DNA from: Bifidobacterium sp. ESL0790 | GTDB taxonomy: Bacteria > Actinomycetota > Actinomycetes > Actinomycetales > Bifidobacteriaceae | Length of the DNA: 64,000 nt | Assembly: GCF_029395435.1 (NCBI RefSeq) | Contig: NZ_CP113915.1 | Location: forward strand, 310,001 to 374,000 | Reading direction: 5' to 3' | Shown here: positions 5,012-44,778 of the stretch, piece after piece | Layout of the letters: every line of letters begins with the position of its first letter | How positions within the stretch are numbered: position 1 is the first letter of the stretch | Made by a program: the position numbers and the translations under genes | The notes under the pieces: model-generated | The model's database searches: none | Seen by the model: only the letters and a program-made list of their open reading frames with translations | Told to the model about the DNA's origin: nothing

Positions 5012-7159
5012 CTAGTGTTGTTGCGTCGGACGCGGCTTGAGTTCTCCAAGGTGCACGGTCTGGGTGGTGCCGCGATATTCGAGGTGGAGCTCGTCGCCTT
5101 CCAATTGCGCTTCAGGCACGGCGATGGTGCCGTCGGGTTCGAGGCTTTCGAGCTCGCGGTCGCCGAGGTAGGCGGAGACGAACACGTGGCTGCCGGGCTC
5201 GATGGTCCTTGTCTGCATCGGGAAGCGCGTTTTGGGGTAGAGCAGGTTGGTGTTGGGCTCCGGCGCGGCGAGCTCCACCTGGAATCCCTGGGCGCCGACG
5301 AGACCGGTCAGGCCGCGGTCCGTGCGGTAGAACACGGAGGTGAATGGCTCGCCGAAAGTATATGAGTCCGGCGTCGTGTGGCCGGAATCCTTGCCGTCTG
5401 CCGAAGCCGACGAACCAGCGACAGCCCCAACAGCGTCATCGTTCCATCCATCGGAGAACGACCCATCCGCCGCATGCCTGTCGCCATGCACACCATTGCG
5501 TGCGACACCAGTATCGGGCCCATCAAACTCATCGCCGCCGTCGGGCATCGAGAACCCGCCCTCGGCCAGATGTAGCGCCCGCCCAGTGCCGATGGCGTGG
5601 ACGCGGATATGCCAGGGCATCAGCGGCACGATGAAGTTGCGAATCTCGACATCGTTCCATGGCTGCCAGAGTGAATACACGTAGTCGTCGTGGATCGCAT
5701 AGTCCTCGTAGCCAAACGCCGTGCGCCAGTGGTATTGCGATTCTGAGACGGCCAGTGTGCTGTCGCAGGCCATCTGCTTGAGCACCGTGGCGGCTTTGGG
5801 CGTGGAGAAGCCGAAGGTCGTGGAATAGACGTATTTCTCGTATTTCGCGTCGGTGTGGTTGTGCTCGGGCGCGTGCTGGCCGGCGGTGAACGCCTGCACC
5901 TCGCGGCCCGTGGCGCTGTGGGCCACCAGCATGCGCGGTTCAGGCTGAAGTTTCAGCGGTTCGAACTTGAGTGCCTCGCTTTCGTGGCAGGTCCAGAACT
6001 CGTCGGTTTCCGGGATGCACAAAAAGATGAAGCCTTTGAGCGCCCAGTAGGCGGAGGCCGGACCGTTGTAGCCCTCGGCCATGTTCATGTTGGGGTAGGC
6101 GTAGCCGATGGGGATGAGGCCGTCTGATTGGAAGATGTTCTGGCTGAACCACCAGCGCAGGTTGCCCAGCAGCAGGTGCTTCACGTCACTGAGGTTCCAG
6201 CCTTCCGGCATTGGGATGCCGGCGTAGGCGGCAGCGGCCCAGAACGCGGCTTGGGCGAAGCGGTAGTCGAGGCTGCGGCCGAACGGCAGGCAGGCCCCGT
6301 CGCTGGCGAACCAGTTCGCATAGCTCGGCACGAAGGCGCTCGCCCGTTGACGTAACAGCTCATAGCGCTTGGCCTCGGCGTTCGCGGTGCCGTTGGCGTT
6401 GGTGGTTTCGCTGCCTTTGTCGCCTTTATTATTGGCGTCTTTCGCAGCCCGTTCGTCGTCGTGCTCCGCCAGTCCGATGGTCAGCAGCGTGAAGAACTGG
6501 TAGGCGAAGGGGATGTAGTTGTCGATCTGGTCCTTATAGCCGTCGTACGACCATCCGTGCCCGAGATAATGCGACGAGGTAACGTCGAAATCAGCCTGCA
6601 CGAGCGCCTCGTGGTCGGTGTGGCCGGTGTGCGCAAACCAGGTGTTGACCATCTGCCGGAACCACAGCCAGTTGGTCTGAGGTATCTCGTGATGGTTGAT
6701 CTGGTCGAGCCAGTCGAGCATGTTCCGCTGTTGCGTGGCGCTCAGGTGGTTCCAGAAATCCCTGCGCGTCTCGAAGAGGAACGCGGTCACCGCGCCCATC
6801 TCCACGAACAGCTGGTCGTAGTCGTCGAGTTCGCTGCCCCAATAATCCGGGTCGCCGGGCGTGGTGCCGTGCACGAGCCCCGCGCAGGTCGCCTGCCACC
6901 AATCCGGGAAGCGGCGGATGTTGTCGCGGTTGTAGAAGAGCGGTCCGAGGCCCCATAGCAGCCGGCAGAACCCCTCGATGGAGGTGCGGTCCTGGCTGTA
7001 GACCGCGCCGCTGTCGGACATACGGAACCTGCCGTACCGCCCGCCTTCCATCACCAGCCGCATGGCCGGGCGCAGGATGTCGACCAGCGCGCGCTCGCAA
7101 TCCGCCTTGGTGCGCAGCGGGTTTCGCGCCACGGATTCGTTGAAAGGCTGTGTCTGCAT
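5012..7159 (-). CDS. DUF2264 protein, possible intracellular beta-glucuronidase
   Basis: The 715-residue protein matches the DUF2264 family: an N-terminal (alpha/alpha)-barrel-like part rich in aromatic residues (GFCRLLWGLGPLFY; FPDWWQ; QTNWLWFRQMVN; LGHGWSYDGYKDQIDNY; FGRSLDYRFAQAAFWAA), then a beta-rich C-terminal half. From memory, this family overlaps CAZy GH154, which contains beta-glucuronidases active on arabinogalactan-type glycans. The adjacent glucuronate pathway fits that role. No signal peptide is present, so it acts in the cytoplasm. The start at 7159 has AAGGAGCACCC directly before it; an upstream in-frame ATG at 7225 lacks such a site. Residues about 245-275 form an Asn/Lys/Gly-rich insertion, and about 560-610 an Asp/Gly-rich one. 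Exact substrate is inferred. Confidence 0.8.
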   Translation of the reverse strand: MQTQPFNESVARNPLRTKADCERALVDILRPAMRLVMEGGRYGRFRMSDSGAVYSQDRTSIEGFCRLLWGLGPLFYNRDNIRRFPDWWQATCAGLVHGTTPGDPDYWGSELDDYDQLFVEMGAVTAFLFETRRDFWNHLSATQQRNMLDWLDQINHHEIPQTNWLWFRQMVNTWFAHTGHTDHEALVQADFDVTSSHYLGHGWSYDGYKDQIDNYIPFAYQFFTLLTIGLAEHDDERAAKDANNKGDKGSETTNANGTANAEAKRYELLRQRASAFVPSYANWFASDGACLPFGRSLDYRFAQAAFWAAAAYAGIPMPEGWNLSDVKHLLLGNLRWWFSQNIFQSDGLIPIGYAYPNMNMAEGYNGPASAYWALKGFIFLCIPETDEFWTCHESEALKFEPLKLQPEPRMLVAHSATGREVQAFTAGQHAPEHNHTDAKYEKYVYSTTFGFSTPKAATVLKQMACDSTLAVSESQYHWRTAFGYEDYAIHDDYVYSLWQPWNDVEIRNFIVPLMPWHIRVHAIGTGRALHLAEGGFSMPDGGDEFDGPDTGVARNGVHGDRHAADGSFSDGWNDDAVGAVAGSSASADGKDSGHTTPDSYTFGEPFTSVFYRTDRGLTGLVGAQGFQVELAAPEPNTNLLYPKTRFPMQTRTIEPGSHVFVSAYLGDRELESLEPDGTIAVPEAQLEGDELHLEYRGTTQTVHLGELKPRPTQQH

Positions 7160-18885: not shown

Positions 18886-19863
18886 ATGTCAGATGCAAAT
18901 GCTGCGGGCTCTGCCATAGCGAAGAAGCATGCCGTGGTGGCCCCCGCCAAACCACCGAGAGGGGGCGCGAGAGGAAGGATCGATAGCAGGGCGATTTCGC
19001 ACCGCAACCTTCGCAATGGCCTGATCTTCATCGCACCGAACTTCATCGGCTTCATCCTGCTGACGCTGTTCCCGGTGCTTTCGCTGTTCTATATCGCGTT
19101 CACCAAATGGTCGGCGTTCGGCCTGCCGGTGTTCAACGGCCTGAAGAACTGGACACGTCTGTGGGGAGATAAGATCTTCTGGCAGTCCGTGTGGCACACG
19201 TTCTACTATTCGCTCGTCCACATCCCGCTGACCCTGGCGATCGCCTTCGGTCTGGCGGTGCTGCTGAACTCCAAGCTCCGTGGCCGCTCGTTCTTCCGCA
19301 CGGTCGCCTTCCTGCCCTACGTCACCTCCATGGTGGCTGCGGCGCAGGTCTGGGCCATGCTCTTCGACCCTAAGTCCGGCCCGATCAACCAGTTCCTGAA
19401 GCTGTTCGTGGGCGCCGGCAACACCCCCGGGTGGCTCGGCTCCACCTCATGGGCCATGCCTGCCGTCATCATCGTGGGTACCTGGCGCGAGGTCGGCTAC
19501 TACATGATTCTGCTTCTGGCTGGCTTGCAGACCATACCTACGGAACTATACGAGGCCGCCGAACTTGACGGCACGAACGGGTGGCAGCGATTCTGGCACG
19601 TCACCGTGCCGATGATGCGCCCGACGCTCTTCTTCGTGATGGTCACGCTGACCATCGGCTCGTTCAAGATCCTTGACCTCACCTTGATCATGACCAACGG
19701 CGGTCCTGGCACGACCACCATGGTGCTCGCGCAGTACGTCTACAGCGTGGCGTTCGACCGTGGCGATTACGGCTACGCATCGGCGGTCTCGCTGGTGTTG
19801 CTGTTCATCTGCATGGTCGTGACCTTGATCCAGTTCTGGTACAACAACTCGAAGGAGGACTAA
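18886..19863 (+). CDS. Sugar ABC transporter permease, MalF/UgpA type
   Basis: This 325-residue CUT1 permease has a basic, Ala/Arg-rich cytoplasmic start (about 45 residues), six predicted membrane helices and the EAA coupling loop EAAELDGTNGWQRFWHVTVP near residue 222, which docks on the ATPase. The start is set by AAGGAGGAAGCAGCG just before the ATG. The second permease starts 4 bp after its stop, so the pair is tightly coupled. No ATPase gene follows; as in many actinobacteria, a shared MsiK-like ATPase encoded elsewhere probably energises the importer. Confidence 0.93.
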   Translation: MSDANAAGSAIAKKHAVVAPAKPPRGGARGRIDSRAISHRNLRNGLIFIAPNFIGFILLTLFPVLSLFYIAFTKWSAFGLPVFNGLKNWTRLWGDKIFWQSVWHTFYYSLVHIPLTLAIAFGLAVLLNSKLRGRSFFRTVAFLPYVTSMVAAAQVWAMLFDPKSGPINQFLKLFVGAGNTPGWLGSTSWAMPAVIIVGTWREVGYYMILLLAGLQTIPTELYEAAELDGTNGWQRFWHVTVPMMRPTLFFVMVTLTIGSFKILDLTLIMTNGGPGTTTMVLAQYVYSVAFDRGDYGYASAVSLVLLFICMVVTLIQFWYNNSKED

Positions 19864-25008: not shown

Positions 25009-25072
25009 GGATCTCCAAGAGTTCTGGAACCATGTTTGAGCTTCTATATCCCCTATTTTCCTCAGAGAAGCC

Positions 25073-25196
25073 GTTAAGTAGGTGTTTTAGGGATTAAGTG
25101 GGTGCCTACCGGGAGCGGAAACAGCAAAAATAAGACATTTCAACCGATGTTTCCGCAAAACAGACACCCACTTAACCTCCGAGGCACCCACTTAAC
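25073..25196. repeat. Dispersed 124-bp inverted-repeat element, copy A
   Basis: Copy A of the four-copy intergenic family has two GTTAAGTGGGTGC-like motifs 20 bp apart at the left end and two reverse-complement motifs (cores ending at 25176 and 25196) 20 bp apart at the right end. The core has its own inner pairing (GGAAACA at about 25116-25122 with TGTTTCC at 25148-25154). It lies between convergent genes (GH78 and an MFS transporter). Confidence 0.85.
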
Positions 25197-25282
25197 GCCC
25201 AATCCGTCCCAGACAACCATTTTGGTTGGCAGCTGTGGCGAGGCTAAGCTCCGATACTCGTCTTTGCTCCAGTTCGACTCAA

Positions 25283-30929: not shown

Positions 30930-31121
30930 TGTCGTCGTTCATCCTCGTGGTCCATGTCACCTTGGCTGGAAGTCGCGCTGAGTGGCAATCATGTGGGACG
31001 ATGTGTCCTCTGTTGATATGTTGTCTTGGGCAATGCCGGAACGGGAGGGGTATTGTCTCGTCGCCCTGCAACGTTGCCATTTGGCCGACCCCACGTCGGG
31101 TTCGCGCGGCACAATAGTCTT

Positions 31122-32645
31122 ATGACTGAAAACGCAACTGATTCAAGATCTGAACTGCCCAAAGACGTCCGTGTTCGCTTCTGCCCGTCGCCCACCGGAA
31201 CCCCGCACGTCGGCATGGTGCGCACCGCCCTGTTCAACTGGGCCGAGGCGCGGCACACGCACGGCACCTTCGTCTTCCGTATCGAAGACACCGACAACGT
31301 GCGAGACACCGAGGAGAGCTACAACCAGATTCTCGACGCCCTGAACTGGCTTCACCTCGACTGGGACGAGGGCATCAACGTCGGCGGCCCCGACGGCCCG
31401 TACCGTCAGTCCGAGCGCGGCGATATTTATCGCGACGTCGCGGCGAAATTACTTGAGGCCGGCTATGCCTATGAGTCCTACTCCACCTCCGAGGAGATCG
31501 AGGCGCGTAACGTCGCCGCAGGCCGCCCGAAGGCGTTCGGTTACGACGGCTACGACCGCAACCTGACCGACGAACAGAAGGCCGCGTTCAAGGCCGAGGG
31601 CCGCAAGCCCGCGCTGCGCATCAAGATGCCCGACGAGGATATCGCCTTCGACGACCTTATTCGCGGCCACATCGAGTTCAAAGCTGGTTCGGTTCCTGAT
31701 TACGTCATCGTGCGACCGAACGGCGACCCGCTTTACACGCTCACCAACCCGGTCGACGACGCGCTCATGCGCATCAACGTCGTGCTGCGCGGCGAGGATC
31801 TGCTGAGTTCCACGCCCCGCCAGGTCGTGCTCTACCGTTACCTGATGAAGCTCGGCATTGCCAAGGAAATGCCGCTCTTCGGCCACATGCCCTACGTCAT
31901 GGGCAAGGGCAAGAAGAAGCTCTCCAAGCGTGATCCGGAGTCCAACCTCTTCCTGCACCGCGAGAACGGCTTCATTCCCGAAGGTCTTTTGAACTATCTG
32001 GCGCTGCTCGGCTGGTCGATTGCACCCGACCGCGACGTGTTCAGCATGGACGAGATGGTCGAGAAATTCGACATTCGCGACGTGAAGGCCAACCCGGCCC
32101 ACTTCGACATCGACAAGGCCATCTCCATCAACGCCGAGCACATCCGCATGCTCGAGCCGCAGGACTTCCTCAACCGCTCCGTGCCGTATCTGCACCACGA
32201 CGGCGTCGTTTCCGCCGATTCGTGGGACGAGCTCACCGACCGCGAACGCACGATTCTCACCGCCGCCGCACCGCTGGTCCAGCCGCGTGTACGCCTGCTT
32301 GGCGAGGTCGCTGGCATGGCCGGAAGCCTGCTGAGCGAGGACGAGTACATCGAGCCCGCCGACGACGCCCGCAAGACGCTCAAGGACTCCGCGCCCGAGG
32401 TGCTCGACAAGGCCATCACCGCGCTCAGCGACGTCGCCGAGGCCGATTGGAAGACCGACAACCTCCACGAGACGCTCAACAAGGCGTTGGTCGAGGACGG
32501 CGGTTTCAAGCCGCGTCTGGCGTTCGGCCCGGTGCGCGTGGCCATGTCCGGCCGCCGCGTCTCTCCGCCGCTCTTCGAGTCCATGGAGATCGTCGGCAAG
32601 CCGCTGACCCTCGCCCGTCTCAAGGGTCTGCGCGAGCACCTGTGA
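31122..32645 (+). CDS. gltX: Glutamyl-tRNA synthetase
   Basis: This class I aminoacyl-tRNA synthetase charges tRNA-Glu with glutamate in the cytoplasm. In bacteria that lack a glutaminyl-tRNA synthetase it also charges tRNA-Gln before amidation. The 507-residue chain has the HIGH-type signature [13 protein letters not shown] (19-31), VFRIEDTD, the discriminator region [20 protein letters not shown], and the KMSKS-type KKLSKRD at about 266-272. A C-terminal anticodon-binding domain completes it. The ATG at 31122 starts MTENATD. The gene is followed by a repeat array and then by tRNA-Glu and tRNA-Gln. Confidence 0.95.
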
Positions 32646-32690
32646 CGTGCTTACGATGACACCGAGAATAGGCCATTGACATTTTGTGTG

Positions 32691-32954
32691 TGGCTTATTC
32701 CTAGCGAAACCTATAATTTGCGCCATAATTGGGCTGCTTGGCTGGTGTCAGTGGCTTGTTTATGGCGCAAACTTGTGATTCCGCCATATTTGGGCCACTG
32801 AGGAGTCGTGGGTGGCTTATTTATGTCGCAAATTGTTAGTGTCGCCATATTTGGGCTGCTTGGCTGGTGTCAGTGGCTTGTTTATGGCGCAAACTTGTGA
32901 TTCCACCATATTTGGGCCGCTGTGAGTCTGCGGATGGCTTGTTTGTGGCGCAAT
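32691..32954. repeat. 61-bp tandem repeat array, 4.3 copies
   Basis: Four consecutive units of exactly 61 bp begin at 32691, 32752, 32813 and 32874, and a partial fifth at 32935. Each starts TGGCTT. Units 1 and 3 share one version of the second half (GCTGCTTGGCTGGTGTCAG), while 2 and 4 share one version of the first half, giving a 122-bp higher-order period. Most units contain TATGGCG...CGCCATA pairing. The array fills the space between gltX and the tRNA genes. Confidence 0.85.
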
Positions 32955-33088: not shown

Positions 33089-33161
33089 GCCTCCATCGTC
33101 TAGCGGTCTAGGACTACGCCCTCTCACGGCGCCAACACCGGTTCAAATCCGGTTGGAGGTA
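33089..33161 (+). tRNA. tRNA-Glu (CTC anticodon)
   Basis: A 73-nt cloverleaf can be drawn. The acceptor arm GCCTCCA pairs with TGGAGGT (with a terminal G-T pair) and A is the discriminator base. The anticodon loop CTCTCAC carries CTC, and the T-arm contains GGTTCAAATCC. CCA is not encoded. It follows gltX, whose product charges it. Confidence 0.93.
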
Positions 33162-33203
33162 CGAAGTGCTATAGTGGTTTACCGGCTACGGCACCAAGCC
33201 AAT

Positions 33204-33275
33204 TGGGGTATGGTGTAATTGGCAACACGGCTGATTCTGGTTCAGTTGTTCTTGGTTCGAGTCCAGGTACCCCAG
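33204..33275 (+). tRNA. tRNA-Gln (CTG anticodon)
   Basis: A 72-nt cloverleaf can be drawn. The acceptor TGGGGTA pairs with TACCCCA and G is the discriminator. The D-arm is GGTGTAATTGGCAACAC, the anticodon loop TTCTGGT carries CTG, and the T-arm contains GGTTCGAGTCC. CCA is not encoded. It lies 42 bp after tRNA-Glu and probably shares its transcript. Confidence 0.93.
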
Positions 33276-33288
33276 CAAAGATGCAGAG

Positions 33289-34692: not shown

Positions 34693-34799
34693 TGGCCATG
34701 GCCATAGCGGCTATAAAGGCCTGGCTTCGTTGACATTCCGCGCTTTCCGGGCGTGGTGCCTTTACATGCCTGAATGGTGTTGACCCAATCCCATTTCAT

Positions 34800-34878
34800 G
34801 ATTATGGCAACGCCTACTTAGTGATTATGGTATTCGCTACTTTAGGATTATGGTATTTTCTACTTAGTGATTATGGTA
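34800..34878. repeat. 23-bp tandem repeat, about 3.4 copies
   Basis: Units starting GATTATGG begin at 34800, 34823, 34846 and 34869 (the last partial). The period is exactly 23 bp. Units 2 and 3 are most alike. The array is AT-rich and lies between the phosphoesterase gene and dispersed element copy B. Confidence 0.85.
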
Positions 34879-35014: not shown

Positions 35015-35136
35015 ATAAGTGGGTACTTTGGCGGTTAAGTGGGTGCCGGTTTCGCTGAAATGCCTATAAAAATGGGCTATTTTTGAATGTTTTCTGATGA
35101 GAGGCACCCACTTAACCGTGCAGGCACCCACTTAAC
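35015..35136. repeat. Dispersed 122-bp inverted-repeat element, copy B
   Basis: It has the same architecture as copy A: two TAAGTGGGT motifs 20 bp apart on the left (the TAAG cores at 35016 and 35036), and two CACCCACTTAAC motifs ending at 35116 and 35136 on the right. The core resembles copy C (CGCTGAAAT near 35053). It lies between convergent genes. Confidence 0.85.
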
Positions 35137-44516: not shown

Positions 44517-44557
44517 AAATAAATGGGTGTGTCGAAGTGGATCGAGTCGTTGGGGTA

Positions 44558-44681
44558 GTTAAGTGGGTGCTTTAGATGTTAAGTGGGTGCCTATTTTGCT
44601 GAAATACCCATGGGAATGGCTGCTTTTTAAGTATTTCCAGACGAGGAGGCACCCACTTAACGCCCAAAGCACCCACTTAAC
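44558..44681. repeat. Dispersed 124-bp inverted-repeat element, copy C
   Basis: This is the best-preserved copy: GTTAAGTGGGTGC at 44558 and again 20 bp later, and GCACCCACTTAAC ending at 44661 and 44681. The core shares TGCTGAAATACCC-type sequence with copy B. Unlike the other three copies it lies between divergent genes (tetR and the acyltransferase). Confidence 0.88.
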
Positions 44682-44778
44682 TCGATTTGATGCTTTTGGG
44701 GTGCCGATTGCTCGGTTTTCGAGTATGCCACGCGGGGCGATAATCCACGACGTTGCGGGCTTGCGGCACAATGGAGGC

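Follow-up and report, generated by a model that had tools for sequence, protein, structure and literature searches.

The closest described systems are the REP, BIME and REPIN elements (GTAG and CGTC families), clustered intergenic palindromes near gene ends that, in the portions of the two sources used here, often consist of two inverted, non-identical halves (PMC3733652, PMC3116915). REPINs show compensatory changes, as the portion of PMC3116915 used here describes them, and the phyla named with GTAG and CGTC repeats in the corresponding portion of the REP survey (PMC3733652) do not include Actinobacteria. The arrays that we describe from Bifidobacterium sp. ESL0790 are likewise clustered intergenic palindromes near gene ends, but they come without a RAYT/Y1 transposase, tags or covariation, keep constant gaps of 7 and 10 bp, and in many cases occupy orthologous positions.

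The sites of architectural chromosome proteins, such as parS–ParB and matS–MatP, offer a further likeness, being palindromic, dispersed sites of double-stranded DNA (dsDNA) outside genes, and the ESL0790 arrays also lean to the origin half of the chromosome; they differ in their greater length (51 bp), bipartite half-sites, tandem 61-bp pitch and clade-specific outer part. MITEs, which have terminal inverted repeats but no transposase gene, share the inverted repeats and the want of coding capacity, whereas the arrays are tandem at constant pitch with an interior hardly shared between loci. Searching the open-access literature by title and start of abstract, we found no description of such a bifidobacterial family.

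Anatomy of the array beside gltX

The window, the whole stretch of 64,000 nucleotides analysed, spans positions 310001–374000 of a genome of 2,254,804 bp in one contig. It carries gltX (glutamate–tRNA ligase; TIGR00464, above cut-off) at 31119–32645 on the + strand, within an open reading frame of 31026–32645 whose start we set at the MTEN methionine. Downstream on the same strand lie tRNA-Glu (CTC, 33089–33162) and tRNA-Gln (CTG, 33204–33276), both identified by ARAGORN and Rfam. A first-pass annotation had placed a tandem array between gltX and these tRNA genes, correctly, and had described four units of equal length, which we confirm: four 61-bp units occupy 32719–32952, with starts at 32719, 32780, 32841 and 32902, the first lying 73 bp past the gltX stop codon. 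TRF scores of 387 (period 122) and 260 (period 61), and identities of 0.68 at lag 61 and 0.81 at lag 122 against a shuffle maximum of 0.416 (300 shuffles, lags 20–130), put the array far above chance.

Each unit consists of an imperfect palindrome of 51 bp, in which two half-sites of 22 bp (consensus TGCGCCATAAATAAGCCACTGA) stand in inverted orientation 7 bp apart, and a 10-bp spacer; this palindromic structure, and the genome-wide dispersal described below, had been missed at first pass. Unit 1 (32719–32769) pairs a forward half-site at 32719–32740 with a reverse one at 32748–32769 across its 7-bp loop, unit 2 (32780–32830) pairs 32780–32801 with 32809–32830, and unit 3 (32841–32891) pairs 32841–32862 with 32870–32891, each followed by its 10-bp spacer; unit 4 (32902–32952) pairs 32902–32923 with 32931–32952. 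Upstream of unit 1, a degenerate lone half-site on the − strand (32687–32708) scores 7, against 17–34 for the eight others. Of the extent first given, 32691–32954, the opening stretch (32691–32718) has only part of this lone half-site plus spacer. The duplication of a 122-bp pair, read originally from both alternating unit types, is borne out by one of them: unit 3 is a near-copy of unit 1 (58/61 positions), whereas units 2 and 4 match at 41/61, no better than neighbours 1 and 2 (42/61). A recent 122-bp duplication is thus shown by units 1 and 3 only.

Other repeats are present in the window. A second dispersed palindromic family occurs at 25072–25197, 35016–35134 and 44557–44682, where a direct pair of GTTAAGTGGGTGCC copies, spaced by about 21 bp, is followed after some 54 bp by an inverted pair. 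BLAST matches this family 31 times (query counted), at about 17 places in the genome, and we take it to resemble an IS-end MITE with doubled binding sites. A 23-bp tandem repeat at 34799–34878 (3.5 copies of TGATTATGGTATCGCTACTTAG) shares an intergenic region with this second family.

Dispersal, spacing and selection on the arms

BLAST with the gltX array returns 20 matches in its own genome (query counted). A sequence-only model (R1) built from 49 units of this genome gives 130 two-strand matches, which merge to 24 array places and one weak 27-bp place (at 19216, E 0.007; excluded from the origin and orthology counts). The search for the unit elsewhere in the genome, suggested at first pass, thus reveals a dispersed motif with about 24 arrays of 1–4 units each. 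A half-site pattern allowing 3 mismatches matches at 57 forward and 57 reverse places, compared with 2 and 3 for a reversed control. Of these 114 places 100 were listed, and outside arrays we count 8 of the 100, all of them at the limit of 3 mismatches; the control's 5 predict about as many, so lone half-sites are not seen beyond chance among those 100, nor is any autonomous relative of the MITE or IS-end kind. Half-sites in this genome are palindrome-bound.

To describe the geometry we used 86 distinct arrays from nine genomes: 24 from ESL0790 (G000), 19 from G093, 15 from G033, 7 each from G004 and G002, 6 from G054, 4 from G028 and 2 each from G049 and G096, with the arrays of G002, G049, G096 and G033 partly covered. 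Of 157 steps between the two half-sites of a unit, 151 measure 29 bp, and of 95 steps between units, 81 measure 32 bp (5 measure 31 bp and 6 measure 33 bp); 14 further steps link same-direction half-sites 57–62 bp apart, one partner falling below threshold. Arrays mostly open on a forward half-site (77/86) and close on a reverse one (71/86). Half-sites were scored singly, so these steps are not imposed by the scan; the arrays themselves were found with the fixed-length model, and a spacing-free half-site search of the ESL0790 genome leads to the same places. Base frequencies over 302 half-sites reveal two strong blocks, CGCCAT at positions 3–8 and GCC-CT at 15–20, about one helical turn apart. 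The 61-bp pitch makes 5.8 turns if a turn takes 10.5 bp and 6.1 turns if it takes 10.0 bp.

Arms compared between ESL0790 loci have an identity of 0.69, loops one of 0.30 and spacers one of 0.38, adjacent units inside one array being slightly more alike (0.73, 0.46 and 0.44). The combination found, a conserved motif at conserved spacing with diverged fill-in, is that of a protein-binding site array. The first-pass suggestion of a spaced binding array is accordingly well supported, by the rigid half-site spacing, by arms conserved over loops and by the orthologous positions of 15 of the 24 arrays.

A neutral tandem repeat (VNTR) or a degenerate CRISPR-like array seems extremely improbable. The number of units does differ between species (four at gltX here, three units of the motif at gltX in G004), which, together with the one 122-bp duplication, lends limited support to the recombining repeat also proposed at first pass; neutral repeats, however, would not turn up with one motif at two dozen loci, nor keep steps of 29 and 32 bp around loops so little conserved. 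Type I-E CRISPR arrays have the same period of 61 bp, and we count this in favour of a CRISPR-like origin. Yet a CRISPR combines a single invariant repeat with unrelated spacers of about 32 bp, whereas 44 of the 61 positions here are constrained, as two inverted arms, and the less conserved parts measure only 7 and 10 bp. We reject a CRISPR on this geometry and on the variable parts. No cas genes are named around the ESL0790 arrays in the neighbour annotation, which is not cas-specific.

We see no covariation between the halves of a unit. Mirrored-column pairing in 49 units scores 685 against 722.9 (s.d. 9.9) in shuffles (z −3.8), and in an orientation-free test of 151 units the half-sites of one unit match each other less than random pairs do (2204 against 2274.5, s.d. 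21.2, z −3.3; 0 of 1,000 permutations as low). Compensatory covariation between halves is absent from both sets, and either purine is accepted in each half at positions 13, 14 and 18. This lack of covariation argues against an RNA or single-stranded DNA hairpin, which would be expected to show compensatory changes, and selection probably acts on dsDNA. The shortage of perfect palindromy may reflect the instability of perfect palindromes.

These tests also bear on whether the arrays are structured RNAs or tandem intrinsic (bidirectional) transcription terminators, which we regard as very unlikely. The + strand does fold better than its shuffles (z −5.9) and so does the other strand (z −4.9), as expected of any palindrome array; arrays lie behind stop codons, and in G021 and G025 the units look like terminators of the A-tract/stem/T-tract type. 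On the other hand, pairing is avoided rather than preserved, no terminator-like site lies within the window array, and a terminator would not need a 61-bp pitch. A terminator rule is satisfied inside the array at 5 of 81 array-bearing gene ends, and overall at 7 of 81 compared with 16 of 157 ends without arrays (p=0.82). A structured or small RNA is rejected: Rfam matches only the two tRNAs, and there is no covarying helix.

Gene ends, relatives and the gltX interval

Genes were called with an in-house codon-usage method, and the context counts omit the 4 of 86 arrays without a clear interval. Measured to the nearest gene 3′ end, arrays lie at a median distance of 32 bp (n=76). Arrays lie in 23 convergent, 53 tandem and 6 divergent intervals (n=82; background 27, 71 and 22, n=120), the convergent enrichment being not significant (23/82 against 27/120, p=0.41) and divergent regions being depleted (6/82 against 22/120, p=0.037). 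In ESL0790, 19 of 24 arrays fall in the origin half (p=0.0066); the same lean is not significant in G093 (13/19) or G054 (6/7). In G004 and G028, a search of the terminal 3 kb at either end did not locate dnaA.

Most neighbouring genes that match a known family belong to core metabolism; as a plain count, many serve amino-acid metabolism or transport or arabinose use (loci L123, L126, L130, L133, L134, L137, L138, L139, L140, L141 and L142). Those related to amino acids include gltX, glnA, hisH, O-acetylhomoserine sulfhydrylase, aminotransferases, an amino-acid kinase, ilvC, two amino-acid permeases and serS, and arrays stand upstream of araA, araD, pyrE, hisH and a divergent pair of amino-acid permeases. 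The many amino-acid genes and araA/araD speak for operators of a global transcription regulator that would act on promoters on the 5′ side of the arrays. Arrays between same-strand genes, however, are nearer the 3′ end of the upstream gene in 38 of 53 cases, the 23 in convergent intervals have no promoter beside them, and it is the divergent regions that are depleted; we hold this explanation to be doubtful, with a small share of the probability.

A binder encoded beside the arrays was sought among 47 of the 49 listed array-adjacent ORFs, compared with Pfam or NCBIfam (not each with both), gltX being treated separately and the 41-residue ORF of L132 left out; no transposase or known nucleoid protein was found among them. 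A regulator with a sugar-binding domain (L125) and a response regulator (L135, more than 2 kb away) were discarded as candidates, each occurring at one array only, and charge counts of nine flanking ORFs yield nothing convincing as a binder.

With orthology defined by blastn, as a flanking match that covers 150 bp or more and lies no farther than 400 bp from the array on the same side, we find 15 of the 24 ESL0790 arrays beside an orthologous flank that also carries an array in at least one relative (some pairs, such as L121 and L125, depend on more distant flanks); the other 9 have no orthologous partner in the partly covered genomes. Orthologous arrays are 0.70 identical in arms and 0.39 in loops, compared with 0.68 and 0.29 for non-orthologous ones. 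The ddl-gene arrays of G086 and G071 were not counted as orthologues, those genes being only 31% identical to the ESL0790 ddl; nor was a G004 array near a rhomboid gene, which lies on the opposite side of the gene from its ESL0790 counterpart.

The 9 arrays without partners count in favour of a REP/BIME/REPIN-like family of short palindromic miniature elements spread by a transposase since lost or unrecognised and kept as gene-end relics. The outward look also agrees (dispersed, palindromic, intergenic, near gene ends, in clusters of 1–4 copies), as far as the portions of PMC3733652 and PMC3116915 used here go. However, the many orthologous positions, loops only 0.30 identical between ESL0790 loci (no sign of recent copying) and half-sites at chance level outside arrays among the 100 listed places all oppose it. 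A Y1 transposase (Y1_Tnp, PF01797) is absent from ESL0790 and from all 21 array-positive genomes, the 4 of 101 genomes that have one all being array-negative. Within 8 bp of the ends of 151 units, GTAG occurs 3 times, CTAC 3, CGTC 4 and GACG 5, which does not amount to tags. We found no array match in plasmids or phages, and none in viral contigs for one exact half-site pattern. The arrays are thus dispersed extragenic palindromes near gene ends that have neither a RAYT gene nor a hairpin maintained by compensatory changes; in this last respect they are the opposite of REPINs as the portion of PMC3116915 used here presents them. We judge a REP-like origin unlikely, though it keeps a real share of the probability.

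At gltX itself, the intervals up to the tRNA genes in 23 named Bifidobacteriaceae hold no half-site of the ESL0790 motif scoring 12 or more. They include those of B-bin1, ESL0682, ESL0763 and ESL0784, and GltX is 95% identical in B-bin1 and ESL0682. Absence from close relatives, one part of the refuting condition in the first-pass annotation, is therefore seen in these intervals, but G004 has the motif there. The ESL0784 gltX–tRNA-Glu interval (L113, 5547–5700) has a differently worded array of the same 22-7-22-10 geometry, with two units (z 6.6, 0 of 200 shuffles), half-sites like GATGCGCTAAACAGGACACTCA and an outer part GATGCGC; its exact pattern is present only at that locus among 288 loci. 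The geometry scan is a weak detector, since it scores the arm pairing that the family avoids: the G004 array, whose first unit has a 6-bp loop, is equalled by 55 of 200 shuffles. By the same weak detector, four other gltX intervals (L078, L079, L081 and L104) are equalled by 0 or 1 of 200 shuffles; we do not count them as arrays.

Separate from these arrays, the gltX–tRNA-Glu intervals of other species bear unrelated long palindromes (for example CGAGGTGGTTATAACG..CGTTATAACCACCTCG), at 5649–5850 of L085 (B. primatium), 5650–5900 of L079 (B. bohemicum) and 5660–5730 of L078 (ESL0763). This interval may, on their account, be a hot spot for palindromic elements.

Clade variation and a proposed explanation

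In the genus, 21 of 101 genomes have matches at E≤0.01; 9 have a best E of 1.5e-10 or lower, some others show one or two weak matches, and the single match of G013 resembles coding sequence. A family-wide search at E≤0.001 yields 17 of 189 genomes; 16 belong to the genus, and the sole match in another genus (G107) was dropped for its resemblance to coding sequence. Both the R1 model and the PWM were trained on ESL0790 units, so variant clades are under-counted by these numbers, and searches over 40 genomes used stricter filters.

An inner-core pattern (GCCRCTGA-N7-TCAGYGGC, 1 mismatch allowed) gives forward matches well above its reversed control in G000 (16 against 0), G021 (23/1), G025 (12/2), G029 (11/2), G033 (29/0), G037 (7/0), G049 (7/2), G054 (10/0) and G061 (17/0). 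The pattern performs poorly in the array genomes G002 (2/0), G004 (1/1), G028 (1/0), G093 (4/1) and G096 (2/0); the classical-motif model matches G002 at 56 places. At least one inner-core match occurs in 43 of 101 genomes, many at control level. In other clades the inner core and the 61-bp pitch are retained and the outer 7-mer differs, being YTCGTGA in G021, G025 and G071, CTCCGTA in G037 and G029, and TTCCGTA at single loci of G051 and G083. Among the core matches listed for these clades, the 18 neighbour distances below 400 bp are 61 bp (13), 122 bp (4) and 60 bp (1), and 23 further distances exceed 400 bp. ESL0790 and G071, with its other outer motif, both carry an array behind a rhomboid gene (proteins 54% identical); these two arrays are probably orthologous, the far flank being not matched. 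As a separate observation, repeats that face each other (GGCTTATATATGGCA/TGCCATATATAAGCC) at a distance of about 100 bp occur in L064 and L065 (G098 and G055) and may form a further related family.

From the sequence, we consider it fairly probable that the gltX array represents four dsDNA binding sites for a putative DNA-binding protein, itself probably architectural or a roadblock. Such a binder would be an abundant, dimeric (or dimer-of-dimers) Bifidobacterium protein with two DNA contacts per monomer. We infer that such a protein reads each 22-bp half-site from roughly one face of the helix, in two major grooves that follow one another, through an outer contact at CGCCATA, which varies between clades, and an inner contact at GCCRCTGA, which is conserved. 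With 51 bp of palindrome and 10 bp of spacer making a pitch of about six helical turns, neighbouring dimers would sit side by side and could bind cooperatively. Bound protein may act as a block, insulating adjacent transcription units from one another or stopping RNA polymerase, and/or as an anchor that organises the nucleoid.

Within this explanation an architectural role appears likeliest, ahead of classical promoter control, because arrays lie mostly just behind gene ends; some gene regulation may still take part, since several arrays also stand upstream of genes. A pure insulator is weakened by the convergent enrichment being not significant, and the patchy presence in the genus suggests that the function is dispensable. 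Against the binding-site reading stand the classical half-site at gltX in none of the 23 named intervals and the orthologous arms, which are hardly more alike than non-orthologous ones.

A wider proposal, tentative and possible rather than probable, is a Bifidobacterium-specific chromosome-organising system in which one rapidly re-specifying two-domain DNA-binding protein occupies genome-wide arrays at 61-bp pitch. The inner half would be fixed across clades and the outer 7-mer (TGCGCCA, YTCGTGA or YTCCGTA, with GATGCGC at the ESL0784 gltX) rewritten in register across sets of arrays, at least once in the same interval (gltX–tRNA-Glu); this same-interval recoding rests on ESL0784.

If the binding-site reading is right, bifidobacteria have chromosomal protein-binding arrays of a kind not described before, arranged by a geometric code that can be measured, and probably also an undescribed architectural or roadblock protein; the clade-wise outer rewriting at fixed pitch and inner core would offer a natural series on how the specificity of a protein and of dozens of its sites changes jointly. 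Array DNA (51 or 122 bp) could then serve as bait for that protein, and the arrays as species-specific markers. If the wider proposal were true, the arrays would be a natural record of a protein–DNA recognition code switching in a nucleoid system.
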